From the NCBI RefSeq assembly GCF_000092905.1, contig NC_014098.1:1984001-2048000 (forward strand): a stretch of DNA of 64,000 nucleotides, in the 5' to 3' direction. Shown here piece by piece: positions 7,132 to 49,778 of the stretch. The DNA comes from Kyrpidia tusciae DSM 2912 (GTDB lineage: Bacteria; Bacillota; Bacilli; Kyrpidiales; Kyrpidiaceae). The position numbers and the translations under genes are program-made. The notes beneath the pieces were generated by a model. That model was not told the origin of the DNA and did not search any database. It was given only the letters and a program-made list of their open reading frames with translations. Each line of letters opens with the position of its first letter. Position 1 is the first letter of the stretch.

Positions 7132-8573
7132 GATGTGAACACCAGCCCATCTCTGCCGGGTTCGGGGAAAATTTTCCCGGGGTTCATGATGTTGTCCGGA
7201 TCCCAGGCCTGCTTGATCCGCTTCGTCATCTCCACCCCGACCTCTCCCAACTGCCACGTCAAAAATGGCGCCTTCATCGTGCCGATGCCGTGTTCCCCGG
7301 ACAGGGTCCCCCCCATCTCCAGGGCCGCGCGGAAAATCTCCGCCACCGCCTCTTCCACCCGCTTCATCTCTTCCCGATCCCGGAGATCGCACAGGATGTT
7401 CGGGTGGAGATTCCCGTCCCCGGCGTGGCCGAACACCACCAGCTCCACCCCGTACTTCTTGCGAATCTCCCGGAGTTTGGCGAACATCTCCGGAATCCGG
7501 CTGCGGGGCACCGTGGCGTCCTCGGAGATTTTGGTGGGTTTGATCCGGGCGATGGCCGGAGAAATCTGGCGGCGGGCAAACCACAGTCGATCCCGGGCCG
7601 CCTCATCCGCCGCCACCTCCACCGACCGCGCCCCCAATTGCCGACAAATCTGGGCAGCCTGACGGATCTCGTCGTCCACGGCGGCGGGGTGACCGTCCAC
7701 CTCCACCAAGAGCACCGCTTCGGCGTCGACAGGGAGACCGCTGGGCCGAAACGCCTCCACGGCCCGAAGGCAGGCCTGGTCGATGATCTCCAAGGCTCCC
7801 GGGAGGATCCCCGAGGTCAAAATCTTGGAAATGGCCTTCCCCGCCACCACCAGATCGTCAAAAACCGCCAGGGCCGTCCGCCGGGCCTGGGGTTTTGGCA
7901 GCAGGCGCAACACGGCTTCCGTGACGATGCCCAAGGTCCCTTCGGAGCCGACGATCAGCCGCGTCAAATCATACCCCGTCACATTCTTGATCGTGTGGCC
8001 TCCGGTGCGAAACACCCTCCCGTCGGCAGTCACCACCTCAAGACCCAGCACATAATCCCGGGTCACCCCGTATTTCAGCCCCCTGGGGCCGCCGGAGTTC
8101 TCCGCGATATTGCCCCCGATGGTGGAAATCCGGGAACTGCTCGGATCCGGCGGATAAAACAAGCCGTGGCGCTCCGCCGCCTTCTGCAGATCCAAGGTCC
8201 GCACCCCCGGCGACACCACCGCCACCAAATCGTCCGGGTAGATCTCCAGCTTCCCATCCATCTTCGACAGATCCACCACGATGCCCCCGTACACCGGCAG
8301 CGGACCGCCGCTCAGACAACTGCCCGATCCCCGGGGGTACAAAGGAATCCGCTCCCTCGCCGCCGTCCGCACCACCGCCTGCACTTCCTCGGTACTCTTC
8401 GGTTGCACCACACAATCCGGCACATAGACCCCGAAGGACGCGTCATAAGCATAACTCAACCGATCCGCCTCGGAGGTCAGCACCCGGCCGGGGCCGAGAA
8501 TCCCCCGCAACTCTTCAATGGGCACCGCCCGCCGGGAGCCGCCGGCCGCCCGACTCTCTTCTCCCGCACTCAT
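7128..8573 (-). CDS. glcD: FAD-linked glycolate/D-lactate oxidase subunit GlcD
   Basis: Flavoprotein of 481 residues that oxidises an alpha-hydroxy acid (glycolate or D-lactate class). It has an N-terminal FAD_binding_4 (PCMH/VAO) domain with YPRGSGSCLSGG and the diphosphate-binding ISTIGGNIAENSGG, and a C-terminal FAD-oxidase domain with FGHAGDGNLHPN and SGEHGIGTMK. The start at 8573 is chosen because ATGA overlaps the stop of the upstream relic; longer in-frame starts lie inside that relic. The glcF partner overlaps by ATGA downstream. No separate glcE is present, so this is a two-subunit (D+F) form. The substrate is uncertain, but the LarA-like and LarE relics in the same operon suggest a 2-hydroxy acid delivered by an isomerase. 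Confidence 0.92.
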   Translation of the reverse strand: MSAGEESRAAGGSRRAVPIEELRGILGPGRVLTSEADRLSYAYDASFGVYVPDCVVQPKSTEEVQAVVRTAARERIPLYPRGSGSCLSGGPLPVYGGIVVDLSKMDGKLEIYPDDLVAVVSPGVRTLDLQKAAERHGLFYPPDPSSSRISTIGGNIAENSGGPRGLKYGVTRDYVLGLEVVTADGRVFRTGGHTIKNVTGYDLTRLIVGSEGTLGIVTEAVLRLLPKPQARRTALAVFDDLVVAGKAISKILTSGILPGALEIIDQACLRAVEAFRPSGLPVDAEAVLLVEVDGHPAAVDDEIRQAAQICRQLGARSVEVAADEAARDRLWFARRQISPAIARIKPTKISEDATVPRSRIPEMFAKLREIRKKYGVELVVFGHAGDGNLHPNILCDLRDREEMKRVEEAVAEIFRAALEMGGTLSGEHGIGTMKAPFLTWQLGEVGVEMTKRIKQAWDPDNIMNPGKIFPEPGRDGLVFTS

Positions 8574-16098: not shown

Positions 16099-17130
16099 TC
16101 ATTTCGCTTTTTTCACAAACTCCATATCTACCAGCCCGTCGTAAGTGTAGCTACCCTTGAAAATCCCCGTTGTGATCATTACGTCCATGTCCCGTTGCAG
16201 TGCTTGCGGTGTAATCATCCCATCCGTACTCCACAAATGATCTGCGTAGGCCCGATCTAGGGATGCCTGAATGGCCTGATCGGACAACGTGGGAAATTGT
16301 TTCTTGGCCACCTTGGCCGCAAAGGTCTTATCAGACTGCATCTTCTTCAGCACTTCCACCACTGCATCCACAAATTGCTGGACAGTCTCCGGATCCTTTT
16401 GAATAGTAGAGTTCTTGACGCTGACCACAGAGTAGCTATAATCACCCATAGACGGAAATTTATAGAATGGCTCGTCCCACACTCTTTTGGTTATTCCGTC
16501 CACAATTTGAGGCTCGGCCCCATTAGCGACATCTGCCAAGCCTTGTTGCACCATAGCCACCACCGCCGTAGCATCGGCGGGCTCGAGGATTTGGACATCT
16601 TTATCCGGATTGAGACCTAATTGAATCAATAGATACCTCATCAAGAGATTCGGTGTTCCCCCATGACGCCCCGCCGCAATTCTTTTCCCCCGAAGAAAGG
16701 CTTTCAGATCTGCGGGAGAGTCACTCTTTGGACCTGTGTCGGCTTTGGCCATGAGATACACGTTGGCGCGGTTTACCACGTTCACGACGGAAATGATGGG
16801 ATCAGGATTCCCCTGATTTGCTAAAGCATTCGACTCAGGACCTCCGATCACTCCCCACGCCTGTCCACTCACCACTGCCGTTACGTGGGCTCCACCGGTG
16901 GCCGTCATAAATTGAACATCCAGACCGTGCTTTTTAAAATACCCCTCTTGCTCAGCTGCATATAGCGGGAGATAACCGATCAGGTGCACCGGTTCAGCGA
17001 TGATGATTTTTTTGAGCCCTTGGGAGTCAGATCCCGGTCCCGAAACGCCCTGCCCACTTCCACAGCCAGACATCGCAAAGGCCAATGTGATACAAAGAAC
17101 TGTGAAAAATAACGGTCGAAATTTTGCCAA
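16099..17130 (-). CDS. ABC transporter substrate-binding lipoprotein, NMT1/THI5/SsuA-like
   Basis: Extracellular lipoprotein: an N-terminal hydrophobic stretch is followed by the lipobox MSGC (Cys about 22). The mature part matches the NMT1/SsuA-like fold (AEPVHLIGYLPLYAAEQEGY, ATGGAHVTAVVSGQAWGVI), which binds pyrimidine precursors, sulfonates, nitrate or cyanate. Length 343. The gene lies between the permease and the isochorismatase gene in one operon. The ligand is not known; the adjacent amidohydrolase argues for a small amide or pyrimidine-like compound. Confidence 0.88.
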   Translation of the reverse strand: MAKFRPLFFTVLCITLAFAMSGCGSGQGVSGPGSDSQGLKKIIIAEPVHLIGYLPLYAAEQEGYFKKHGLDVQFMTATGGAHVTAVVSGQAWGVIGGPESNALANQGNPDPIISVVNVVNRANVYLMAKADTGPKSDSPADLKAFLRGKRIAAGRHGGTPNLLMRYLLIQLGLNPDKDVQILEPADATAVVAMVQQGLADVANGAEPQIVDGITKRVWDEPFYKFPSMGDYSYSVVSVKNSTIQKDPETVQQFVDAVVEVLKKMQSDKTFAAKVAKKQFPTLSDQAIQASLDRAYADHLWSTDGMITPQALQRDMDVMITTGIFKGSYTYDGLVDMEFVKKAK

Positions 17131-17169
17131 GACGCCCCCCCCTCTTTACTCGCTGATTTGTGATACGAA

Positions 17170-18033
17170 TCAAGATTTGGGTAAGCCCTGGGAGAGCCAT
17201 TTTTCGAGGGCAACCACCCCGGTGTACATAACCATTGACAGAATCGAAAGGACAACGACGCCGACCCAAACCAGTGGTATGTCCAGGATCGTACCGGCAT
17301 ACAAAATCATGCGCCCAACGCCCTGTTGGGAAGCAATGAACTCTCCCACAATGGCACCGGCCAGGGCAAGGGCAATATTGATCCGCAAGCTTCCGATAAT
17401 CCAAGGCATTGACCATGGCACCACCACTTTGAAAAATACATGTCGTCGCTGTGCCCCCAGGGAATACAATAAGCGTTCCATATCGGAATCCAGGCTCTTC
17501 ACCCCGCTGTACGCAGACAAAGCAGTGACGATAACGGTCATGAGAAAAGCTAGAGCAACTTTTGAGAAAAAGCCGATTCCAAGAAGAATGACAAGAACGG
17601 GAGCGAGAGCCAGTTTCGGCATCGCGTTCAGCAGAATCAAGAACGGTTCACTGACTTCAGCGTAAGACCTAGACCACCAAAAGGATAGACCGACTGCTGC
17701 CCCCACGAGAGTTCCCGACACAAAGCCAATCACTGTCGATCCTGAAGTATAGAGAACATCTGAAAGTAAAGTTCCTTGGGTGAGTTGAACCCATGCGGTC
17801 TGGACAATCGTGCTTGGCCTGCTCCAATAATAGGCATTTAGCCACCCGATTCGTGACAAGACCTCCCACAAACCGATGATCACGATTCCAACCACAATTC
17901 GTCCGGTCATCACCGAACGCCGATGGCGCCTTTCCAACTCTTCCTCGTCGAAAACAACCAGGCGGGCAGCGGATTCGTTTGGCAACGCGGCACTCCGAAG
18001 CACCGCTGCCACTTGTTCCTCTGCACCGTTCAT
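17170..18033 (-). CDS. ABC transporter permease, SsuC/TauC-like
   Basis: Inner-membrane subunit of 287 residues with six hydrophobic segments and the BPD_transp_1 EAA motif region (YSLGAQRRHVFFKVVVPWSM, residues about 192-211). It has a hydrophilic N-terminal extension of about 35 residues. It pairs with the ATPase encoded 27 bases upstream and the binding protein downstream. Confidence 0.9.
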   Translation of the reverse strand: MNGAEEQVAAVLRSAALPNESAARLVVFDEEELERRHRRSVMTGRIVVGIVIIGLWEVLSRIGWLNAYYWSRPSTIVQTAWVQLTQGTLLSDVLYTSGSTVIGFVSGTLVGAAVGLSFWWSRSYAEVSEPFLILLNAMPKLALAPVLVILLGIGFFSKVALAFLMTVIVTALSAYSGVKSLDSDMERLLYSLGAQRRHVFFKVVVPWSMPWIIGSLRINIALALAGAIVGEFIASQQGVGRMILYAGTILDIPLVWVGVVVLSILSMVMYTGVVALEKWLSQGLPKS

Positions 18034-18060
18034 TCATCATCCCTCCAAAAGGCGAACGCT

Positions 18061-18861
18061 TCACGAATAGCGTGCAGCCGGTTCGCGTTCGTCGTCCGTC
18101 TTGAATTCATCCGCCAGTAGATCGAGAAGGTGGTGCTTTAGTCTCATAAAGCGGTCAGATGTCATGTCTTCCTTCGTTCGTGGCCGCGCCAAAGACACCT
18201 GCACTTTCTCCTTTATCCGCCCAGGTCGCGCACTGAAAACGTAAATTTCGTCAGACAAATAAAGGGCTTCGTCGATATCATGGGTAACGAAGAGCACCGT
18301 TTTGCCAAAATCAGACCAGATCCTGAGGAGCCAATTTTGCATAGCAAGGCGGGTCTGGGCATCCAATGCACCAAAGGGTTCATCGAGAAGCATCACATCA
18401 CGGTCGTAGAGCAACGTCCGGAGCAACGCCGCACGTTGCCGCATGCCACCGGAGAGTTCCCTGGGATAGTGGTGCTCGAACCCGCGAAGTCCGTATTTTT
18501 CGATCAGTGGAACGGCTCGGGCCACAGCTTCCTTATGCGGCATCCCTCGAATTTCCATTCCCAAGATAATGTTATCGACGATGGTCCGCCACGGCAGGAG
18601 CATGTCTTTTTGGAGCATGTAACCGACAAATCCCGTTTTGCCCGTAATGACTTTCCCGTCCATAGAGACCTTACCCGTCGAGGGAATAGTGAGACCCGCG
18701 ATAATGTTGAATAAGGTTGATTTTCCACAGCCACTGGGGCCAATGATACTAACAAACCGTCCCTCAGGTACGGTCAAATGCGTTTCCTGCAACACCTGCA
18801 CATCCTGTTTGTTTTTGCGAAACCATTTGGATACCCCCGCTACTTCAATTTTGACGGTCAC
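18061..18861 (-). CDS. ABC transporter ATP-binding protein, SsuB/TauB-like
   Basis: Cytoplasmic ATPase of 266 residues with Walker A GPSGCGKST (about 41-49), the signature LSGGMRQRAALLRTLL, Walker B VMLLDEPFGALD and the H-loop FVTHDIDEAL. It energises the importer formed with the two following genes. The GTG start follows GGAGGTGG closely. About 200 bases of AT-rich sequence upstream (18.87-19.06 kb) presumably hold the operon promoter; no known riboswitch motif was seen there. Confidence 0.92.
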   Translation of the reverse strand: MTVKIEVAGVSKWFRKNKQDVQVLQETHLTVPEGRFVSIIGPSGCGKSTLFNIIAGLTIPSTGKVSMDGKVITGKTGFVGYMLQKDMLLPWRTIVDNIILGMEIRGMPHKEAVARAVPLIEKYGLRGFEHHYPRELSGGMRQRAALLRTLLYDRDVMLLDEPFGALDAQTRLAMQNWLLRIWSDFGKTVLFVTHDIDEALYLSDEIYVFSARPGRIKEKVQVSLARPRTKEDMTSDRFMRLKHHLLDLLADEFKTDDEREPAARYS

Positions 18862-41222: not shown

Positions 41223-42539
41223 TCACCCGCGGTCGAAGGGAGCCGGTTCCATCCCCATGCCAAGCACCGATTTCACCGGCTCAGGATCTTCGGCCGCGCC
41301 ATGTTCCGACCCCTCCGGCCAATTTGTAAACCGCTCCAGCTCATTGTACGCCGGAATGCCATGGAAGGCCAGGTCCAACCCCTGCTCCTCCAAGTCCGGC
41401 GCCACACGAAGTCCCATAATTTTATCGAGAAGAGCGCCAATTCCGAACATGGCCGCAAACCCCCACACCGCCGCCACCGCAGCGCCTAACCCTTGCACGA
41501 GCAGCAGATGGGCATCGCCGGTGGTCAAGATCCCTTGGCGCACATCGAACAACCCCACCGCCACCGTACCCCAGAGACCGCCGAATCCGTGAACCGCCAC
41601 CGCCCCCACCGGATCATCCACCTTCATCCGATCCACCCATCCCGTCGCCCAAACCACCAAGGCCCCGGCCACCGCGCCAATCACCACCGACGCACCCGTC
41701 CCCACAAAGGCACAACCCGCCGTGATCGCCACCAGTCCCGCCAGGGAACCATTGATCGCCATGCTCGGATCGGAAACCTTAAAACGCGCCATGCTCACGA
41801 GGATCGCCGCCGCCCCGCCGGCCGACGCCGCTAGAAAGGTGTGAAGAGCAATCATGGGAAGCCGCACGTCCAGGGCGTTCAATGTACTGCCCGCGTTAAA
41901 CCCGAACCAGCCAAACCACAGAATAAACGCCCCCGCCGAAGCCAGGGGAATGTTACTTGGAGCAAAGACGTTGACCTCTCCATCTGAACCAAATCGCTGG
42001 CGCCTGGGCCCGAGCACCGCGGCCAGGGCCAGGGCGGAAAATCCCCCCATGGCGTGAATCGCCGCCGATCCGGCAAAATCCTCCATCCCGAGTCGAGACA
42101 ACCACCCCCCCGAAGACCAGATCCAGTGACCGGACAACGGATAGATTAGACCGCAGACCAACATGGTCACCACGATATACGCCGAAAATTTCATCCGCTC
42201 GGCGACGGCCCCGGACACGATCGACGCCACCGCCATGGCGAAAGCGATCTGAAATAATGCATAAGCGGCATTCGGAACTCCCTCGGGCCCCGTCACCCCA
42301 GAGGGCAGCGCCCACCCGAACCAACCAAAGTGGTCCGCACCAAACATAAGTCCGAGTCCCACGGCATAATAGGCCAAAGCCCCAAAGGTCAGATCCACAA
42401 AAATTTTCATCGTCACGTTTACGGCGTTTTTGGTCCGCACCAAACCCGCCTCCAAAAGGCTGAACCCGCCCTCCATGAACACGATCATCGCCGCCGCCAG
42501 CACGACCCACACAGTATTCAACCCTTCCGGTAACGTCAC
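41223..42539 (-). CDS. amtB: Ammonium transporter AmtB
   Basis: Membrane channel of 438 residues with eleven hydrophobic segments. Conserved marks include FMEGGFSLLEAGLVRTKNAVN, the twin-His pore region (SAAIHAMGGFSALAL and VAVHGFGGLWGTVAVG), and FILWFGWFGFNAGS. The GTG at 42539 is chosen because GGAGGGGAGA precedes it by 6 bases; a longer frame would start inside the promoter. It follows a PII gene, the classic glnK-amtB pairing in the order PII first. It would recapture ammonia, a main product of purine and guanidine breakdown. Confidence 0.93.
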   Translation of the reverse strand: MTLPEGLNTVWVVLAAAMIVFMEGGFSLLEAGLVRTKNAVNVTMKIFVDLTFGALAYYAVGLGLMFGADHFGWFGWALPSGVTGPEGVPNAAYALFQIAFAMAVASIVSGAVAERMKFSAYIVVTMLVCGLIYPLSGHWIWSSGGWLSRLGMEDFAGSAAIHAMGGFSALALAAVLGPRRQRFGSDGEVNVFAPSNIPLASAGAFILWFGWFGFNAGSTLNALDVRLPMIALHTFLAASAGGAAAILVSMARFKVSDPSMAINGSLAGLVAITAGCAFVGTGASVVIGAVAGALVVWATGWVDRMKVDDPVGAVAVHGFGGLWGTVAVGLFDVRQGILTTGDAHLLLVQGLGAAVAAVWGFAAMFGIGALLDKIMGLRVAPDLEEQGLDLAFHGIPAYNELERFTNWPEGSEHGAAEDPEPVKSVLGMGMEPAPFDRG

Positions 42540-42575
42540 ATCTCTCCCCTCCAACGTCAGAGAAAATACGATGCC

Positions 42576-42605
42576 AGTATACGCCACCGAAAGGGGGATT
42601 CGCAA
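42576..42605 (-). promoter_or_regulatory. Promoter of amtB
   Basis: On the minus strand TTGCGA is followed after 18 bases by TATACT, about 40 bases before the GTG start. Its position within the longer open frame supports the shorter AmtB. Confidence 0.55.
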
Positions 42606-42638: not shown

Positions 42639-43001
42639 TTATTTTGTGGACCGCATATCATCGATCGTTTCGTCGGGCGCACCGGTGCGAATGTTGTACG
42701 CTTCATACACCGGCAGGACAAAAATTTTCCCGTCCCCCGCCTCCCCGGTCTGCGCCGCCTGGACAATCGACTCCACCGCCCTCTGCGCATAGGCATCGGA
42801 GACGACCATCTCCACCTTCACCTTCGGGTGCAGGCTGATTTGATACACGTGCCCCCGATACACCCCTGCCGAACTGCGCTGTTGACCCCGGCCCTGAACC
42901 TGGCTGACCGTGAATCCAAAGATTCCAGAGGCATGCAGCTTTGCAATCACCGCCTGCAACTTTTCCGGACGAATAATCGCCTCAATCTTTTTCAATCCCA
43001 T
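42639..43001 (-). CDS. glnK: PII nitrogen regulatory protein
   Basis: Signal protein of 120 residues. PII blocks: KKIEAIIRPEKLQAVIAKL at the N-terminus, the T-loop QQRSSAGVYRGHVYQ with Tyr at the uridylylation position, and the C-loop SIVQAAQTGEAGDGKIFVLPV. ATG 43001 follows GGAAGGAAG. It lies about 100 bases upstream of amtB on the same strand. It would bind ATP/ADP and 2-oxoglutarate and block AmtB when nitrogen is plentiful. The T-loop sequence departs from the usual K-G-x-T-E-V-Y-R-G, so partner specificity may differ. Confidence 0.93.
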   Translation of the reverse strand: MGLKKIEAIIRPEKLQAVIAKLHASGIFGFTVSQVQGRGQQRSSAGVYRGHVYQISLHPKVKVEMVVSDAYAQRAVESIVQAAQTGEAGDGKIFVLPVYEAYNIRTGAPDETIDDMRSTK

Positions 43002-43050
43002 TCTTCCTTCCCGCCTGAAAATCGCCTTGATCGCCCCCATGATAACGAAA

Positions 43051-43077
43051 GGAGCGGGACTCGACAAATCCCGCTCC
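43051..43077 (-). terminator. Rho-independent terminator after the nucleotidyltransferase-like gene
   Basis: A perfect 9-base-pair stem (GGAGCGGGA/TCCCGCTCC) with a 9-base loop is followed on the minus strand by TTTCGTT. It ends the 43103-43843 transcript and isolates it from the PII gene. Confidence 0.7.
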
Positions 43078-43102
43078 CCTTGCTCGCGCTCCATTCACGA
43101 AT

Positions 43103-43843
43103 TCACGGCTCCTCGGGCAACTCGTACCACTTCAACCGCTCTCCCACCGCGGCCCGCCACTTCCACTTCATCGTCTTCGGAGTGCGCTCCATCACCTCTG
43201 TCAACTGGCGGATTCGCTCCTCTATCTCCAGCTGAAGCGACGCCTCCACCACAAAATCCTGCAACCTCTCGAGAAGAACATCCAAATTCCGCGTCACCGT
43301 GCGCCACAATCCCCAGTCCCGGGCCAGAGTGTCGGCAAAAAACCGAGTATTGAACGCTCCCGGCTCGTCTCGATCGACGAACGGCACCCCGGACAACAAA
43401 GCCAAGACATCCCGCATATCTTTTTCGGTGAACTCCACCACCTGCAGCTTGGTCAACATCAGGTCTGCCACGGGCAAGGTCACTTCTTGGACAGGCAATC
43501 TGCCGCGAAGGTCCAAGGCGTGGCACATGCGAAACTCGTCAATGAACACGTCGATTTTTTCTTTCCCCCGCCAATACATCAGCCGACTGCGGCCGTTCAG
43601 TAGATTGAACTCCTTTTCCGGCCTGAGTCCCATCGATTCCAGCCACTGCTGCACATCCCGGCGATGTTCCGACACGGTGAACAGATCCACGTCCCCGGGC
43701 GGCCGAACCAGCGTATCCGGAACTTTCCCCAGGACATGATACCGAACCGCCCGCCCGCCAAGCAGCCGGACGCCCCGTTCTTTGTGAGCCAACTCTAGAA
43801 CGAGATCCTCCGCCCAATCCTTCGTCGGCACCGGCTCATTCAT
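43103..43843 (-). CDS. Nucleotidyltransferase-fold protein of unknown function
   Basis: Protein of 246 residues starting at ATG 43843 after GAGGGGATAAAG. The order LLGGRAVRYH (about 27-36), RPPGDVDLFT (47-56), KIDVFIDEF and LPVADLMLTKLQVVEFTEKDMRDVLALL resembles the minimal nucleotidyltransferase/AbiEii-like fold. In that fold GG, a DxD-type pair and a third Asp form the active site, and the KxxD/RDxxD helix follows. Relatives include toxin NTases and house-keeping transferases. No antitoxin-like partner is adjacent; the neighbours are a truncated permease and the PII gene. Substrate and role unknown. Confidence 0.68.
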   Translation of the reverse strand: MNEPVPTKDWAEDLVLELAHKERGVRLLGGRAVRYHVLGKVPDTLVRPPGDVDLFTVSEHRRDVQQWLESMGLRPEKEFNLLNGRSRLMYWRGKEKIDVFIDEFRMCHALDLRGRLPVQEVTLPVADLMLTKLQVVEFTEKDMRDVLALLSGVPFVDRDEPGAFNTRFFADTLARDWGLWRTVTRNLDVLLERLQDFVVEASLQLEIEERIRQLTEVMERTPKTMKWKWRAAVGERLKWYELPEEP

Positions 43844-43914
43844 CTTTATCCCCTCCCGATCTGTATGCCCCGACAACGGCACCTTTGGGCCAAACCGGCG
43901 ACGCCATCCCGGTT

Positions 43915-45192
43915 TTATTCCGGAGGGATCTCTTGAAACACGAGGCCCAAATCGATTCCCTGCCGGGAGCGAATCCATCGCACAATCCCGTAGTACACAA
44001 ACCCCGACAAAAACACCGCCACATTGATGAGAAGCATCGTGGGATGAGCCACACTGATGCCGGAGTTGGAATCATTCAGAAAAGCCCACTCGATCAACCC
44101 CAGGCCGATGATACTGATGGCACCGAGGATCGACAGCACCGGAACGCCCCCGAGTCGCCAATTGATGGGTGAGGCCTCGAACATCGCTTTTTGCCGAAAC
44201 GGAAAGACGATGGCGGCCACCGAGGTCAGCAAAAACGTGAAGACCTGGCCAAAAAATCCGGCGATAGTCGCAAAGGAAGGCGTATAGGCGTAGACGTAGA
44301 GAAGGATCAGGCCGAGAAGCCCCGAAACCCCGATCGACCAGACCGGCGCGTGGGTGCGGTCGCTCACAGCGGACAGCTTCCCAGGTGCAAGCCCATCCAG
44401 GGCCCAGGCCATGAGGTTTCGCGTGGTGGTGAGGATGTAGATCGGCATCCAGGCGAAGGTCCACAGCAAAAACCCGACCCCCATGAGGAGAATGAGCAAG
44501 AGATTGGAGGTCAACATGGCGCCGATCTCCGCGAAGGTCGGGGTAAAACCGATGCCGAGCGACTGGAGATCGGCCGTGTCCAGGGCCCGCAAAAACGGAA
44601 GGCCCGCCACGTGCACCACCGCCCAGACCAGCACCAAGATCCACACCGTGGAATACACCAGCGACCCGGGCATGCCGATCAGCTGGGCGCGATTCGCCCC
44701 CTTGATCTCTCCGCCAATGTACGCGGACGCAATGCTAAAGCCCAAAACCGTAAAGGGCCACGTCGTCGCACTGAGCGTGGAATGCCAACTGAAGCCGGGC
44801 GCCTCCGGTGCCGGCCCAGCTCCTTGCAGGACTGCAGAGTACGCATCCGGATGGCCGGTCAATTTCGACATATACAGGTTGAACGCATCGGCCATGGATC
44901 CCTGGTACGTGGCGAACACCACCAGGATCGCGACCAAGCCCACCGAAGCCAGGATGAACAAATAGAGTTGCAACCGCATGTAAACATTGATCCCGATGGA
45001 AAATAAAATTACATACAGGATAATGAGCACCGCCCCGCTCACAAAGACCCCAAGGGGACTGGTGAACCAATCCCCGATTTGAACCAAATGGGGCGCTTCA
45101 AAATACGCCCCCAAACTCCGGAACAGGGAGGAAATCCCGTACTTGCCGAGAAATGCAGCGGGAATGCCAATGTACAAAAAGCTCCAGATCGT
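43915..45192 (-). pseudogene. APC-family permease, N-terminus removed at an IS end
   Basis: About 425 codons of an amino acid/polyamine/organocation permease remain, from IWSFLYIGIPAAFLGKYG to the stop. Many hydrophobic segments remain, such as LILLMGVGFLLWTFAWMPIY and LNDSNSGISVAHPTMLLINV. Full-length relatives have about 550 residues; the first three or so helices, including the substrate-binding G-S-G-I region, are lost. The break falls exactly at the right end of the TnpB-bearing element at 45192/45193. It was possibly the transporter of the guanidine operon, because gene order and strand continue from gdmH. Confidence 0.82.
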
Positions 45193-45265
45193 CTGACATC
45201 CTTTCAGCCCTAAAGGGGTGGGGTTCTCCTTCAGGAATGGTCGGTTTACGGATGCCCAAACCGGC

Positions 45266-46555
45266 CTAAGCGGCCTGCTTGAACGTCCCCTGTTCACGGC
45301 CTTTCGGTGTGGTTTTCCGCCACACGAACCGGTTGACCGCCGGGCGTGCCAGTGCGCCCACTACTCCCGACGGATCGGGCAAAACTTGATCCGTCTCACG
45401 GAGATACCTTTGCACAATGTTGTACGCGCCCACCAGATCCGCGTTGAATGATTGCCCGCAGTGGAGGAACAACCCCCGCTGGACCCGGGCCGTTTTTGCC
45501 CTCTTCTCGCAGTGGGGACAAATCGTGCTGGTGTTTTTCTCCGACACCTGGATCACCCGAATACCCGCAAGCGCCGCTTTGTAGGTGAGCAGGTTGGTGA
45601 TCTTGCTGAACGGCCATGCGTGAAACTTCTGGTTCCCCGCGTCTCCCCAGTCCTTGTCTTGGCGAATACCGTTTAATTCGCCGACCAGGATAGTGGAAAC
45701 ACCGTGGTCTTCTGCCAGGTTCACCAGCCATTTTGTCAAGGCGTGCAGATAATGGGTGCGTTGTCTGCCCCATTTGGTATTGAGCCGGGTGCATTTGTTG
45801 CTGGTGGATTTCGTGCATTTCGCCTTTTCCTTCTGAAAGTACCGGTCAATGGCCAAAAGCTCACCCCCAGGAACGAGAAACGAAAACCCATCCGTCACGA
45901 GTCCGGCCACAGCGTTTGCGATCCCCAGGTCCAGAGACATGATCCGGCCGGTTTCACAGTACTCGATCGGCACTCTATGGGCGATATGCACATACCAGTC
46001 CCCACTCGTGGGATCCAAGGACAACTTGACCTGCTGGACTTTGCCCAGGGCTGTATCGGGAGGAAGACGGTATTCCAGCACCATTTCCCGCCTTGCGTAG
46101 GTCTTGGGCAATCTCAGCCTGATCCGGTGGCCCGGCAGCATCTCGAAAGCCTTCTGTTTGAAGGTTACTGTGCTTAATGTTTCCTTCTTCCTGAATCCAG
46201 GCGGATTCGCTTTTTGGTCAGCATTTTTCCGAAGCGAAAACCAGGAACGATACGAGTCATCCAGCTCGCTCAGGATTTCCTGAGAACTCTGGGACGGGAG
46301 CAGCTTGTACCAGCGGTTTGCCTTCAGCTCCCGGCACTGTTGTGCAAAGTCTGGTATTTTGCCGGTCTCGTCCCAAACGGAACGCCGATGATGATTGGCC
46401 ACATTCCAGAGCTTGGTGGCGACAAAACCCAACAGACCCAAAAGCAAGGCATCTTGGTCGGAAAGATCGACCACTTTCGCTTTGGCAGTGAGGGTTTGCA
46501 TCGGCGCATCACTGCTCGATTTTTTCTTTCGTGCCGGACGCGCCAAACCGATCAC
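45266..46555 (-). CDS. tnpB: TnpB-family RNA-guided nuclease (IS605 OrfB), zinc finger changed
   Basis: Protein of 429 residues if started at GTG 46555, whose TGA overlap with the tnpA tail is the classic arrangement. The RuvC catalytic residues are present: D209 in MSLDLGIANA, E293 in ILVGELNGI and D373 in SFNADLVGAYNI. The zinc finger has the first CPHC (346-349), but the second knuckle reads LFLHCGQ with one Cys (C366) instead of CxxC. The frame has no stop upstream and continues into the metallophosphoesterase, so a 655-residue fusion from ATG 47233 is possible. TnpB proteins act with an omega-RNA from the right end; only about 70 bases follow the stop here. Activity is uncertain. Confidence 0.88.
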   Translation of the reverse strand: MIGLARPARKKKSSSDAPMQTLTAKAKVVDLSDQDALLLGLLGFVATKLWNVANHHRRSVWDETGKIPDFAQQCRELKANRWYKLLPSQSSQEILSELDDSYRSWFSLRKNADQKANPPGFRKKETLSTVTFKQKAFEMLPGHRIRLRLPKTYARREMVLEYRLPPDTALGKVQQVKLSLDPTSGDWYVHIAHRVPIEYCETGRIMSLDLGIANAVAGLVTDGFSFLVPGGELLAIDRYFQKEKAKCTKSTSNKCTRLNTKWGRQRTHYLHALTKWLVNLAEDHGVSTILVGELNGIRQDKDWGDAGNQKFHAWPFSKITNLLTYKAALAGIRVIQVSEKNTSTICPHCEKRAKTARVQRGLFLHCGQSFNADLVGAYNIVQRYLRETDQVLPDPSGVVGALARPAVNRFVWRKTTPKGREQGTFKQAA

Positions 46556-46644
46556 CCCCGTTTCTTTTGCATTTCGACGTACTTGCGGATAGTATCGGAA
46601 GAAACATTGCCAGCAGTGGAAACAAAATAGCTGCGTGTCACCAT
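46552..46644 (-). pseudogene. tnpA: C-terminal tail of TnpA (Y1 transposase)
   Basis: The 30 codons MVTRSYFVSTAGNVSSDTIR plus KYVEMQKKRG form the conserved last helix region of IS200/IS605 TnpA. The catalytic Tyr and HUH motif are absent. The TGA overlaps the GTG of tnpB. The adjacent sequence beyond 46645 is the metallophosphoesterase in a different frame. Confidence 0.8.
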
Positions 46645-47233
46645 GGACGGCTTCCTCTTCGGGCATCTCGCGAGGACTGTCAAAGGGCGTCTGATTACTG
46701 TAGCCCACCACCACCATTTCATGTTCCTCGTCGATACGCGCCACCCCTCCGTCCATGTTTTCCACATAGTCGCTCTCTCCCAGTACTTCATCCACAAAGG
46801 ACTCGTCATCGTTTCCCGGATTGACGAAACACCGCACCCCGAGCCCTTTGAGCCGCTCTTCAGCCAGTTCCATCCATCTCCGCAAGGATGCGAGGACCAA
46901 CTCCCGAAAGAGTTCGTTCTGCCGGAGTTCATCGGCGGAGATTGCTTCGTATTCGTCCGGTTCCAAGCGCACCGGGTAAAAACCGTTAAAACGGATGGCC
47001 TTCTCCAGGGCTTCGATCTCTTCCGCCGATTCCACCCGGTGCATGCGGCCGAGAAAATTTGCCTCATACCCGGTTCCCCGGTGGATCAGCGGCACCACCA
47101 CCTTCCCCGTGATGTCGCCGCCCAGAATCAACACCCGGGCTCCGTAAAATTTTGCGGCACCCAGAAATTTGAGAAAGCAACGCTCCGATCCGTGGATATC
47201 ACTGGCGTAGAAAATCCGCGTGCCCCTGGCCAT
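46645..47233 (-). pseudogene. Metallophosphoesterase, C-terminus replaced by IS sequence
   Basis: The first about 196 residues of a calcineurin-like phosphoesterase remain. Metal-binding blocks are IFYASDIHGSERC (residues 8-20), LILGGDITGK (35-44) and FVNPGNDDE (136-144). The further VVGYSNQTPFDSPREM is where relatives proceed to the GGH and GH[TV]H blocks, which are lost. The frame then runs through the tnpA tail in another frame into TnpB without a stop. ATG 47233 lies 6 bases after the gdmH stop, with GGAGGGCGGTGAGGGG upstream, so the gene is the second cistron of the guanidine operon. Such phosphoesterases may be accessory to the hydrolase; their role is unknown. Confidence 0.8.
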
Positions 47234-47239
47234 CTCCCC

Positions 47240-48388
47240 TCACCGCCCTCCGATTTTTCCATGTGCCACCATCGTCGCGATCACATCCACCACGGCCCGC
47301 ACCGCCAAGAGTGCTGTCGTGTCGCTGATGTCATAAGGGGGGGACACTTCCACCACTTCCATGGCGCACACCCCCTCTTTTGCCACCAACTGTAAGAGCT
47401 TCAGCGCCTCCCGGGGTAAGAATCCTCCCGGTTCCGGCCAGCCGGTGCCCGGCACGAACCCCGCGTCCACAGAGTCGATATCAAAACTGAGATATACGGC
47501 TTTCGCCCCTTTCCAAGCAACTTCCAGGGCGATCTCCGCCGCTTTCTCGATCCCCATGTCCTCGACATCATGGATGGTGAGAATCGTCGTTCCCCGGTCC
47601 CGGGCTACCTTAACCCCGGCCCGGGGTACCTGCCAACCGCCGATCCCGATCTGAACCAGGTTCGAGGCTGGAGCGTTCGGAATGTTGGTGGCATGAAACC
47701 AAGGCGTGGTGTGCATTCGTTCATCCATGTCTTTTTCCTGGGTATCCACGTGACGATCCAGATGAATAATTCCGACATTACCGTCCACGTTTTCTGCCAC
47801 ACCTCGCAGGCACGGGTACCCGATGGCGTGATCCCCTCCCAGAATAATCGGCATGGTCCCTTTGCTCATCACATGGGACACAGCTTTGGTGATCTGGTCG
47901 AAACTTTTCTCAATGTTCGCCACCGTGAACACATCACCGAGATCACAGATTTTCACTTGCCCCCTGAGATCCACCCCGAGTTCGTAATTGTACGTGGTAT
48001 ATAGGGCCGAAATCCGGCGGATTGCCTGGGGGCCGAATCGCGTCCCAGCCCGATAGGTCGTTCCGATATCAAAGGGCGCACCCAGAATCGCAATGTCATA
48101 TTGACCCACTTCATGGACGTTCTCGAGATAGGGCATTTTGAGAAAGGTGTTGATCCCCGCCCAGTGGGGAAGCTCTCCCCGGCTGAAACAAGAGATCGTG
48201 CGATCCCCGATGCTCGGAGCCGCCTCCAGCCCCATTTCAATGGCGCGCCGAATCTCTTCCTCGCTTCGCACCGTCGGCAGGGTAACCTCGGCAAGAGCCG
48301 CTGAATATCCATCCAATCCCTCTTTGTCAAAGGACGGCTCCTCCAAAGGATGGCGGTAACGCCCGCCGTGGTTGTGGTAGAAACTCAC
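47240..48388 (-). CDS. gdmH: Guanidine hydrolase-type ureohydrolase
   Basis: Arginase/agmatinase-superfamily enzyme of 382 residues expected to hydrolyse guanidine to urea and ammonia. Binuclear metal ligands: GGDHAIG (H187), HLDRHVD (D211, H213, D215) and LSFDIDSVDAGFVPG (two Asp). It has the long N-terminal part (about 90 residues before YDIAILGAPFD) and the MHTTPWFHATN loop (from about 225) that I associate with GdmH of cyanobacteria rather than agmatinase. The decisive context is a guanidine-I riboswitch with terminator directly upstream. GdmH enzymes use nickel; no hypA/hypB pair is adjacent, but a NiFe hydrogenase is encoded 15 kb away. Its stop is 6 bases from the phosphoesterase gene. 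Agmatinase remains the alternative by fold alone. Confidence 0.86.
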   Translation of the reverse strand: MSFYHNHGGRYRHPLEEPSFDKEGLDGYSAALAEVTLPTVRSEEEIRRAIEMGLEAAPSIGDRTISCFSRGELPHWAGINTFLKMPYLENVHEVGQYDIAILGAPFDIGTTYRAGTRFGPQAIRRISALYTTYNYELGVDLRGQVKICDLGDVFTVANIEKSFDQITKAVSHVMSKGTMPIILGGDHAIGYPCLRGVAENVDGNVGIIHLDRHVDTQEKDMDERMHTTPWFHATNIPNAPASNLVQIGIGGWQVPRAGVKVARDRGTTILTIHDVEDMGIEKAAEIALEVAWKGAKAVYLSFDIDSVDAGFVPGTGWPEPGGFLPREALKLLQLVAKEGVCAMEVVEVSPPYDISDTTALLAVRAVVDVIATMVAHGKIGGR

Positions 48389-48406
48389 CGCTTCCCTCTC
48401 CTTTCG

Positions 48407-48540
48407 AAAAAAAAAACGGAGGGATAAAAACCTCCCGGGCTTTTATCCCTCCGTGTGACGCCGGCTTCGGCGCGAACTCCTCTCGGACCGGTCCGTTTGT
48501 CATCTTTCATGCCAAACGCGGAACCCTAGGAGTTCTCTAT
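48407..48540 (-). promoter_or_regulatory. Guanidine-I (ykkC) riboswitch with intrinsic terminator
   Basis: Read on the minus strand, P1 is GAACTCC (48529-48535) pairing with GGAGTTC (48474-48480). It is followed at once by the hallmark CTAGGGTTCCGC. The second half carries GGTCCGAGAG, a small CGCCGAAGCCGGCG hairpin and ACACGGAGGGATAAAAGCCC, close to the ykkC class-1 consensus. The last strand is reused in a strong terminator: CGGAGGGATAAAA pairs with TTTTATCCCTCCG, followed by ten T. Binding of guanidinium should stabilise the aptamer and prevent termination, switching on the ureohydrolase gene. Candidate promoter: TTGCAG, 16 bases, TTAAAA just upstream of the aptamer. Confidence 0.93.
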
Positions 48541-48782
48541 CGCCATTTTAACCGGACTATCGTCATTCTGCAAGATATTTTTCTCATTGTGCGTCATGTT
48601 GTATATCGCAAATATCCCAGATTCAGAAAGGTTTCTATCCTAAATCCGCCCCCTTGTGCACCACCGATTCCCTTTTGAGCAGCTTCCCGCAGCCCTCGCC
48701 CGCCTGGCCTCCCGACGGACTTGGGGAAAAGTGGTTCTGGACCGATGACGCGCAGGGCCGGACCGGCTTCGGTCCGCCCCCT

Positions 48783-49778
48783 TCATGCAAAGGACTCCAG
48801 TACGATTTTTCCAATGCTGCGGCCTGAGCGAATTTCGGCGAAGGCTCTTTCCAGGTTGGCGGCGCTGATCGGGGACAAATGGCGATTCATCGTCGTCCGG
48901 ATCTCTCCCGAGTCCACCAAGCCCGATACCTCCGCGAGGATGCGATGTTGTTCCTGCATATCCGGAGTTCGAAACCGGGCACGCGTGAACATGCCTTCCA
49001 TGGCCCAGGTAAGACTCTTGTCAAACAGCGGTCGCAGATTGACCGGGGAGGTGGGCGCGAGGATGGTGCACAACTTCCCACCCGGCACCAAAACATCTAA
49101 CATGGCATCCCAATTGGGCTCCACCACGTTAAGACAAAAGACCACGTCGACCCCGGATATCCCCAGCGCCTCGAGCTGTGGCCGAAACGGTTCATAATGG
49201 TCGATCACATGGTGGGCGCCGTGCTCCCTCACCCATTTGGTCGACTCCGGACGGGATGCGGTGCCGATCACCTCAAGTCCCGCCCACCGGGCCAGCTGTA
49301 CAGCCATGGAACCCACTCCACCCGCCGCCCCGACGATCAAAATCCTCTTGTCCGATCCACCGTTCGCTTGCACACCTAATTTTTCAAACAGCCCCTCCCA
49401 CGCGGTCAGGGTGGTCAAGGGCAGAGCCGCCGCCTGGGCAAAATCTAAGGTTCGGGGTTTGGGCCCCACCAGCCGCTCATCGACGACGTGATACTCACTG
49501 AAGCCGCCAGGTCGGGTGATGTCCCCGGCGTAATAGACTTCGTCACCCGGGCGAAAGAGCGTACAGGCCGGACCCACCTCCCGGACGATACCCGCCACAT
49601 CCCAACCCAGGATCCGGGGTTTCCCTTCTTCTGCCCGCTGTTTGGTATCCACGGGATTCACCGACACGGCGCGAACCTCCACCAAAAGATCGCGGTCCCC
49701 GGGCGCCGGTTTTGGCACTTCAGTTTCGATGAGATTTCCTGAAGACGTCAACACAATCGCTTTCATTTCGCCGGCCAC
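48783..49778 (-). CDS. Zinc-independent medium-chain alcohol dehydrogenase/quinone oxidoreductase
   Basis: NAD(P)H-dependent MDR protein of about 331 residues. N-terminal GroES-like domain (VPKPAPGDRDLLVEVRAVSVNPVDTKQR) and Rossmann motif ILIVGAAGGVGSMAVQLARW. No catalytic zinc Cys/His set is present, as in quinone reductase and zeta-crystallin-like members. GTG 49778 follows GGAGGTG by six bases; ATG 49766 is the next choice. It diverges from a paralogue at 50331, and the IS605-type relics lie between the two. Substrate not known. Confidence 0.85.
   Translation of the reverse strand: MAGEMKAIVLTSSGNLIETEVPKPAPGDRDLLVEVRAVSVNPVDTKQRAEEGKPRILGWDVAGIVREVGPACTLFRPGDEVYYAGDITRPGGFSEYHVVDERLVGPKPRTLDFAQAAALPLTTLTAWEGLFEKLGVQANGGSDKRILIVGAAGGVGSMAVQLARWAGLEVIGTASRPESTKWVREHGAHHVIDHYEPFRPQLEALGISGVDVVFCLNVVEPNWDAMLDVLVPGGKLCTILAPTSPVNLRPLFDKSLTWAMEGMFTRARFRTPDMQEQHRILAEVSGLVDSGEIRTTMNRHLSPISAANLERAFAEIRSGRSIGKIVLESFA

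Follow-up and report, generated by a model that had tools for sequence, protein, structure and literature searches.

A guanidine-I riboswitch before a predicted guanidinase gene and an interrupted permease cassette in Kyrpidia tusciae DSM 2912

The leader and its riboswitch

The window, i.e. the whole analysed stretch of 64,000 nucleotides from Kyrpidia tusciae DSM 2912 (NC_014098.1, positions 1,984,001 to 2,048,000), carries on its minus strand a riboswitch aptamer, an intrinsic terminator and the gene gdmH for a protein of the guanidinase (guanidine hydrolase) type. They are followed by the first part of a metallophosphoesterase gene, an IS200/IS605-type remnant, an APC-superfamily permease gene without its start, a nucleotidyltransferase-like gene and, adjoining this operon, the genes of a PII-type nitrogen regulator and the ammonium transporter Amt. 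An earlier note on this DNA had placed leader and enzyme gene at 47240-48540, which proved right to the base.

The only gathering-level match of the Rfam cmscan in the whole window is to Guanidine-I (RF00442, ykkC class 1), at 48540-48430 on the minus strand. It spans the model in full length (1-107 of 107) and reaches 83.8 bits against a gathering threshold of 63 (E 1.8e-13), and each of the class-1 core motifs quoted in the earlier note is exact, which confirms the class given there. In a search of the own genome, a single contig of 3,384,766 bases, no further Guanidine-I match came above the cut-off. A sub-threshold match of 42.2 bits (gathering 63) is located at G000:1810627-1810721 (L002 1501-1595 and L090 5631-5722, both minus strand), about 75 bases ahead of an open reading frame of 1532 amino acids assigned by Pfam to glutamate synthase; it is probably a relative of the ykkC subtype 2, which comprises ppGpp and PRPP aptamers. 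Matches below the cut-off also occur in the genomes G043, G046, G049, G060 and G077. The ykkC subtypes are closely related according to the available text of PMC6031431 and the own genome holds such a relative, so one may ask whether the leader before gdmH senses ppGpp or PRPP instead of guanidine. We regard this as next to negligible, since the score, 83.8 compared to 42.2 bits, and the exact class-1 motifs rule it out, and the gene downstream is a guanidinase gene.

The predicted terminator, which would act as the expression platform, extends from 48454 to 48416 (minus strand) and consists of a hairpin with 17 pairs, 8 of them G-C, followed by TTTTTTTTTC. In the computed structure, the conserved 3' part of the aptamer serves as the 5' arm of the terminator, such that one strand is common to both, as the earlier note had described, and aptamer and terminator are mutually exclusive in this model. 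The minimum-energy fold computed for the full leader contains the terminator, and the fold of the aptamer alone lacks it. At -65.6 kcal/mol, the full leader is more stable than all 200 dinucleotide shuffles (-44.8 +/- 3.8, z -5.5), while the aptamer alone stands out less, with 7 of 200 shuffles equally good (z -1.9). When the 3' arm of the terminator is forced to stay unpaired the leader reaches only -40.6 kcal/mol, a cost of 25 kcal/mol in a folding model that includes neither a ligand nor a tertiary term. The number of terminator-like sites in 47100-48800 (two) is not above that of shuffled sequences (mean 1.6); what stands out is a stem as long as 17 pairs that overlaps the aptamer. A sigma-70-like promoter was found nowhere in 47100-48800, the region before the leader included (shuffles 0.8).

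An overlapping hairpin of at least 10 pairs with a T-run at the aptamer end was found in six of the nine gdmH-linked switches of Bacillota that were examined (the window, L087, L005, L006, L016 and L089); it is weak, with 8 pairs, in L088 and was not found in L007 and L012. The same scan detected no such hairpin in eight of nine switches from outside the Bacillota, with a 9-pair hairpin in L018 as the single case. Hence, gdmH switches do not in general have the overlapping platform.

The 382-residue protein

The gdmH gene (47240..48388, minus strand) begins with a GTG codon, 41 bases past the last aptamer base and preceded by a purine-rich AAAGGAGAGG stretch. The encoded protein of 382 amino acids matches the Pfam Arginase family with 263.5 bits. 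Among PDB entries it is closest to 9fek (530 bits) and 7esr/7oi1 (518 bits), and the next entry, 3nio, reaches only 168 bits. The identity amounts to 63% with 9fek and 64% with 7esr, compared to 32-36% with three further PDB ureohydrolases and 33-35% with three arginase-fold proteins from the own genome. The entries 7esr and 7oi1, which carry the database title 'Probable agmatinase 2', are presumably the GdmH of Synechocystis.

All ten published sites are kept in the K. tusciae protein (T111, H187, D211, H213, D215, H226, D303, D305, W317 and E347), among them the six metal ligands H187, D211, H213, D215, D303 and D305, the catalytic H226 and E347, and the complete set of four residues linked to the hydrolysis of guanidine. 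The Thr and Trp that set the specificity correspond to T111 and W317; they are given as T105 and W313 for Nitrospira inopinata and as T97 and W305 for Synechocystis in the available text of PMC11410670. Our residue assignment follows the numbering of that text, shifted by two throughout in both PDB chains, which fits 9fek being the N. inopinata enzyme. The full set of ten sites occurs in 82 of 88 aligned rows; the six others are L010, L011, the second ureohydrolase of L076 and three outgroup references. The genes in L010 (8001-9179) and L011 (8001-9152) fall into the guanidinase clade and encode Thr instead of the specificity Trp, such that their proteins have perhaps changed the substrate. 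Both lie without a guanidine-I match within 8 kb, and a NicO-type nickel transporter gene adjoins the one in L010.

In a tree of 62 rows, 33 of them, i.e. the query, the 9fek and 7esr chains and 30 relatives, are set apart from the others by a branch with 99/98 support, while the tree program flags long branches among other rows and doubtful joins such as that of 1gq6 with the large group holding the query. The nearest neighbours of the K. tusciae protein are those of G002 (same genus), Thermogemmatispora (Chloroflexota) and Sulfoacidibacillus. Compared with the 92% identical G002 copy, dN is 0.051 at a dS of 1.75, which is near saturation; gdmH thus evolves under purifying constraint.

The arginase fold is shared with other ureohydrolases, and the best NCBIfam model for this protein is in fact named 'agmatinase'. 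It could therefore be a misannotated agmatinase, or an enzyme for another guanidino compound with guanidine only as side substrate or signal. However, the 212 bits to that model stay under its cut-off of 302, and the score with the agmatinase model TIGR01230 is likewise below its cut-off (164.4 compared to 174.3 bits). Moreover, K. tusciae encodes separate proteins that exceed the cut-offs for agmatinase (L114, 320 bits) and arginase (L123, 324.5 bits), in addition to the agmatinase-like L104 below the cut-off. Together with the position in the clade of 9fek and 7esr, the residues Thr and Trp that confer guanidine specificity (available text of PMC11410670) and a leader that scores as class 1, these findings make such a reading very improbable, and an agmatinase as such is ruled out by the tree, the residues and the separate model-level proteins. 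Hence, the earlier proposal of a GdmH-like enzyme instead of an agmatinase holds, and judged from its sequence the 382-residue protein is a guanidinase (GdmH) orthologue. Nickel dependence and hydrolysis of guanidine would be expected from this relationship.

A cassette interrupted by an insertion sequence

The intact form of the downstream genes is found in G002 (locus L087), with the order switch, gdmH, metallophosphoesterase (316 amino acids), APC permease (542 amino acids) and nucleotidyltransferase-like gene. The same four-gene order is shared with Sulfoacidibacillus (L005, including a switch) and with two Thermogemmatispora genomes (L003, L004), in which no gathering-level guanidine-I match occurs within 8 kb of gdmH (at 8001). 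Such a cassette of gdmH, metallophosphoesterase, APC permease and nucleotidyltransferase genes in the relatives, broken in K. tusciae by an IS200/IS605 (TnpB) remnant, is the new detail of the present analysis.

In the window, the calcineurin-type metallophosphoesterase is reduced to a 5' fragment of codons 1-193 (46655..47233, minus strand), which is cut by the IS remnant and is 80% identical over 193 amino acids to the intact L087 protein. The latter shows weak Pfam Metallophos matches with one above the cut-off (PF00149, 23.3 compared to 21.5 bits). A structure model built from 3 sequences is poor (pLDDT 51), and sequence searches of the PDB gave no relative of the phosphoesterase (E <= 0.01) or of the permease (E <= 0.001). 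Homologues of the phosphoesterase occur in 57 of 301 Chloroflexota genomes (E <= 1e-20), often in more than one copy and with a weakest best match of 3.3e-50, which rules out a gene specific to this operon. In the class of the window it is restricted to two of 299 genomes, K. tusciae (G000) and G002 (E <= 1e-30). The common occurrence in Chloroflexota and the rarity in the own class make a transfer between phyla probable for at least this gene.

The permease gene (43915..45191, minus strand) lacks about 115 N-terminal residues in comparison with L087; from codon 116 on, the remnant is 83% identical to the intact permease over 424 residues. The intact L087 protein matches AA_permease_2 with 55.1 bits (cut-off 27), and we consider it the probable guanidine importer of the cassette. 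The fourth gene, nucleotidyltransferase-like (43103..43852, minus strand), is kept in the same order in L003, L004, L005 and L087, the L087 copy showing a weak NTP_transf_5 match below the cut-off. In G002 it is followed by a fragment of a NicO-type nickel transporter gene (Pfam below cut-off, E 0.0013) with 58% identity over 50 residues to the one adjacent to gdmH in L010.

Phosphoesterase and permease gene are separated in the window by the IS200/IS605-type remnant (45190..46651, minus strand), which comprises the last tnpA codons, an open tnpB of the RNA-guided nuclease family (guided_TnpB, 179.6 bits, cut-off 100) and the right end. The remnant replaces 717 bases of the G002 arrangement, with which the window is collinear up to codon 193 of the phosphoesterase and again from about codon 116 of the permease. 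The element has a second copy at G000:2057536-2058917, where TnpA (Y1_Tnp) is present and TnpB is shortened; the parts that the two copies share are 89% identical. The right-end boundary is common to both, whereas on the left side the second copy continues into tnpA and the window switches to the phosphoesterase. These junctions suggest that the element inserted into the permease gene and that a later deletion extended from within tnpA to within the phosphoesterase gene. The parts lost are the phosphoesterase stretch with the invariant GHVH motif and the N-terminus of the permease, while both genes are intact in G002, L003, L004 and L005. The K. tusciae permease is, thus, probably inactive.

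Nevertheless, the permease remnant gives no clear signal of decay. It carries 13 changes only in the window and 6 only in G002 over 422 columns, a ratio like those of GdmH (7 and 3) and the nucleotidyltransferase (10 and 4), with 6 and 5 in the phosphoesterase fragment. This lack of an excess implies that the loss is recent or that the remnant still serves something. A replacement of the permease by the NMT1-type ABC genes at 16099-18861 of the window was considered and rejected, as these are not orthologues of the switch-linked importers: compared with L006 and L016, the binding protein is 27-37% identical over 70-79 residues only, the membrane part 20-24% and the ATPase 42-44%, whereas the switch-linked importers share 52-70% among themselves. 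The genes may have some role in import all the same.

It is conceivable, though in our view unlikely, that phosphoesterase and nucleotidyltransferase are partners in guanidine use, such that the cassette of Kyrpidia, Sulfoacidibacillus and Thermogemmatispora would represent a third type of guanidine-use operon with an undescribed step. K. tusciae would then be caught in losing import via the IS200/IS605 remnant, with the switch now also driving tnpB in frame with the phosphoesterase fragment. An open frame of 655 amino acids (45266-47233, minus strand) indeed joins the first 193 phosphoesterase residues in frame with the TnpB-family protein; it lies 3' of gdmH, possibly under the guanidine switch, and is probably a chance fusion at the IS junction.

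Distribution, nitrogen neighbourhood and proposed function

Among K. tusciae and its relatives, four of 41 genomes encode the gdmH protein (E <= 1e-80), as do seven of 299 genomes sampled from the class (E <= 1e-140), the own genome counted in both cases; the Kyrpidia relative G001 is without a match at E <= 1e-80. On plasmids it occurs in 11 of 72,556 records (E <= 1e-100), the best being 70% identical. A search of genome contigs gave 238 relatives, the best 80 of which form our collection. Its 23 Bacillota loci together with the window, L087 and L089 make 26 loci, in which the switch is found at Rfam gathering level upstream of gdmH in eight (the window, L005, L006, L007, L008, L016, L087 and L089), downstream in one and not at all in 17, in stretches that reach 8 kb on either side if the contig is long enough and are shorter in some cases (3.9 kb in all for L009). 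The downstream aptamer is that of L012 (2899-3017, plus strand, 82.9 bits), just 3' of gdmH with its ORF end at 2867, and the contig ends soon after it. The earlier note had implied a rarity of the combination in Gram-positives; the upstream switch is indeed a minority arrangement in Bacillota, but it is not unique. Over all taxa, a pattern scan places a switch upstream of gdmH in an estimated 50 of 79 loci with complete ORF, at loose limits that gave 7 hits in 93 mononucleotide-shuffled sequences; L057, whose ORF runs off the stretch, was left out. The 50 loci are mostly alphaproteobacterial by title, and the scan agrees with Rfam in all 23 Bacillota loci of the collection. At least 28 of 40 gdmH-holding genomes have one or more guanidine-I matches above the cut-off anywhere, as scored with the Rfam model on first-look candidates.

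The pairing of switch and guanidinase has precedents in cyanobacteria, in comammox and, more broadly, across many kinds of microorganisms. The available texts describe a guanidine-I-gdmH operon (sll1077) in Synechocystis sp. PCC 6803 (PMC8390497; Funck 2022 via PMC12186494), a switch-APC permease-guanidinase operon in the comammox N. inopinata (PMC11410670), switch-ABC-guanidinase operons (PMC12186494) and Sll1077 analogues under guanidine riboswitches in "a wide range of microorganisms" (Wang 2021, PMC8390497). K. tusciae shares with Synechocystis the riboswitch class and an orthologous enzyme with the same ten residues. However, the Synechocystis operon also encodes an ABC importer and, as nickel helpers, hypA/hypB-like genes (PMC8390497 and PMC12186494, as far as available), neither of which occurs in the K. 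tusciae operon with its phosphoesterase, APC permease and nucleotidyltransferase genes, the first two broken by the IS remnant. The N. inopinata operon is similar in switch class, APC-superfamily permease and guanidinase, and according to the available text of PMC11410670 likewise has no nickel chaperone genes nearby and a urease elsewhere in the genome; its order is permease before guanidinase, whereas the guanidinase comes first in K. tusciae and the permease is truncated. Among the papers listed in literature searches on guanidine-I riboswitches and guanidine hydrolases, we found no mention of Kyrpidia. Our analysis adds a thermoacidophilic, hydrogen-oxidising member of the Bacillota with a published complete genome to this pairing.

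The operon is adjoined by genes for a PII-type regulator (42639..43094, minus strand; PF00543, 94.9 bits) and Amt (41223..42605, minus strand; TIGR00836, 380.3 bits, cut-off 343.3), in the same order as in L087. At these two ends a purine-to-allantoin nitrogen-scavenging island (12941-41211), in which Pfam identified uricase, HIU hydrolase, OHCU decarboxylase, PucR, a xanthine-dehydrogenase-type protein, adenine deaminase and adenosine deaminase, and which also holds an allantoinase. The purine and ammonium functions that the earlier note had named as nearby are, thus, present. Urease alpha was detected above the cut-off in all ten genomes searched, in K. tusciae with 988.7 bits and elsewhere in the genome, and growth of K. 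tusciae on urea is reported in the available text of PMC7248562. In G001, which is perhaps Kyrpidia sp. EA-1, a urease alpha of 983 bits lies at C1:456281-457984, in contrast to the statement in the available text of PMC7248562 that Kyrpidia EA-1 has no urease gene.

In our view, the locus very likely acts as a transcriptional ON switch that responds to guanidine and controls a guanidinase operon, with sensing and hydrolysis intact and the import arm probably dead. Without guanidine, the leader is predicted to form the long hairpin and U-run from the 3' strand of the aptamer, and transcription would stop before gdmH. The guanidine-bound aptamer would hold the shared strand and RNA polymerase could read on, the ON direction being taken from the known riboswitch class. 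GdmH would then split guanidine into urea and ammonia, as its identity to the known enzymes, active-site residues and clade suggest, and the urease encoded elsewhere would free the remaining nitrogen. The IS remnant has cost the phosphoesterase its end and the permease its start, which probably abolished the import arm.

The earlier note had concluded that guanidine serves as a nitrogen source. With the linked permease truncated by the IS remnant, such a use is plausible rather than established in K. tusciae, and guanidine import is doubtful; the truncation of the importer speaks against an efficient use of guanidine from outside the cell. Alternatively, the operon could serve to detoxify internally made guanidine, with degradation alone kept after the loss of the importer. 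The truncation next to an intact gdmH and switch is consistent with this reading, as is the response of this switch class to intracellular guanidine. The position of the cassette beside Amt/PII and the purine-to-allantoin island, the importer kept in relatives and the presence of urease speak against it, so that we hold detoxification instead of nutrition to be possible rather than probable, and both roles may apply. K. tusciae offers a natural test case, as it retains sensor and enzyme but apparently has a defective linked importer, while its relatives keep the whole cassette. The cassette also points to the APC permease as probable importer and to two uncharacterised partner genes.

For the predicted nickel enzyme, the metal would come from the hydrogenase/urease stock of the cell, since the operon contains no nickel chaperone: hypA/hypB-like helper genes were not found among the operon proteins scanned and a GhaA/GhaB-type chaperone gene was not seen in the operon. 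HypA matches lie at G000:2051271, beside the hydrogenase, and at G000:2551986, and the nearest HypA- and HypB-type genes are about 19 kb off, with the hydrogenase. Of ten genomes searched for HypA (nine with gdmH and G001), seven gave a match, six of them above the cut-off, and none was found in G043, G048 and G054. CbiM is not mentioned in the papers on guanidine metabolism among the matches listed. In L006, L016 and L089, which have the same switch class, enzymes of 79-80% identity and the other importer type (NMT1-type ABC), a CbiM metal-uptake gene directly follows gdmH, unlike in the K. tusciae operon; L006 also has a CbiQ plus ATPase protein. The genome G016 (L089) combines on one contig the switch, the ABC importer with a binding protein 62% identical to an NMT1-family one, gdmH, CbiM, a Peripla_BP_5 binding protein, presumably of the urea-binding UrtA type, and urease about 8 kb on. 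Judged from these three loci, the guanidinase of these Bacillota seems to be linked with metal uptake and not with HypA.
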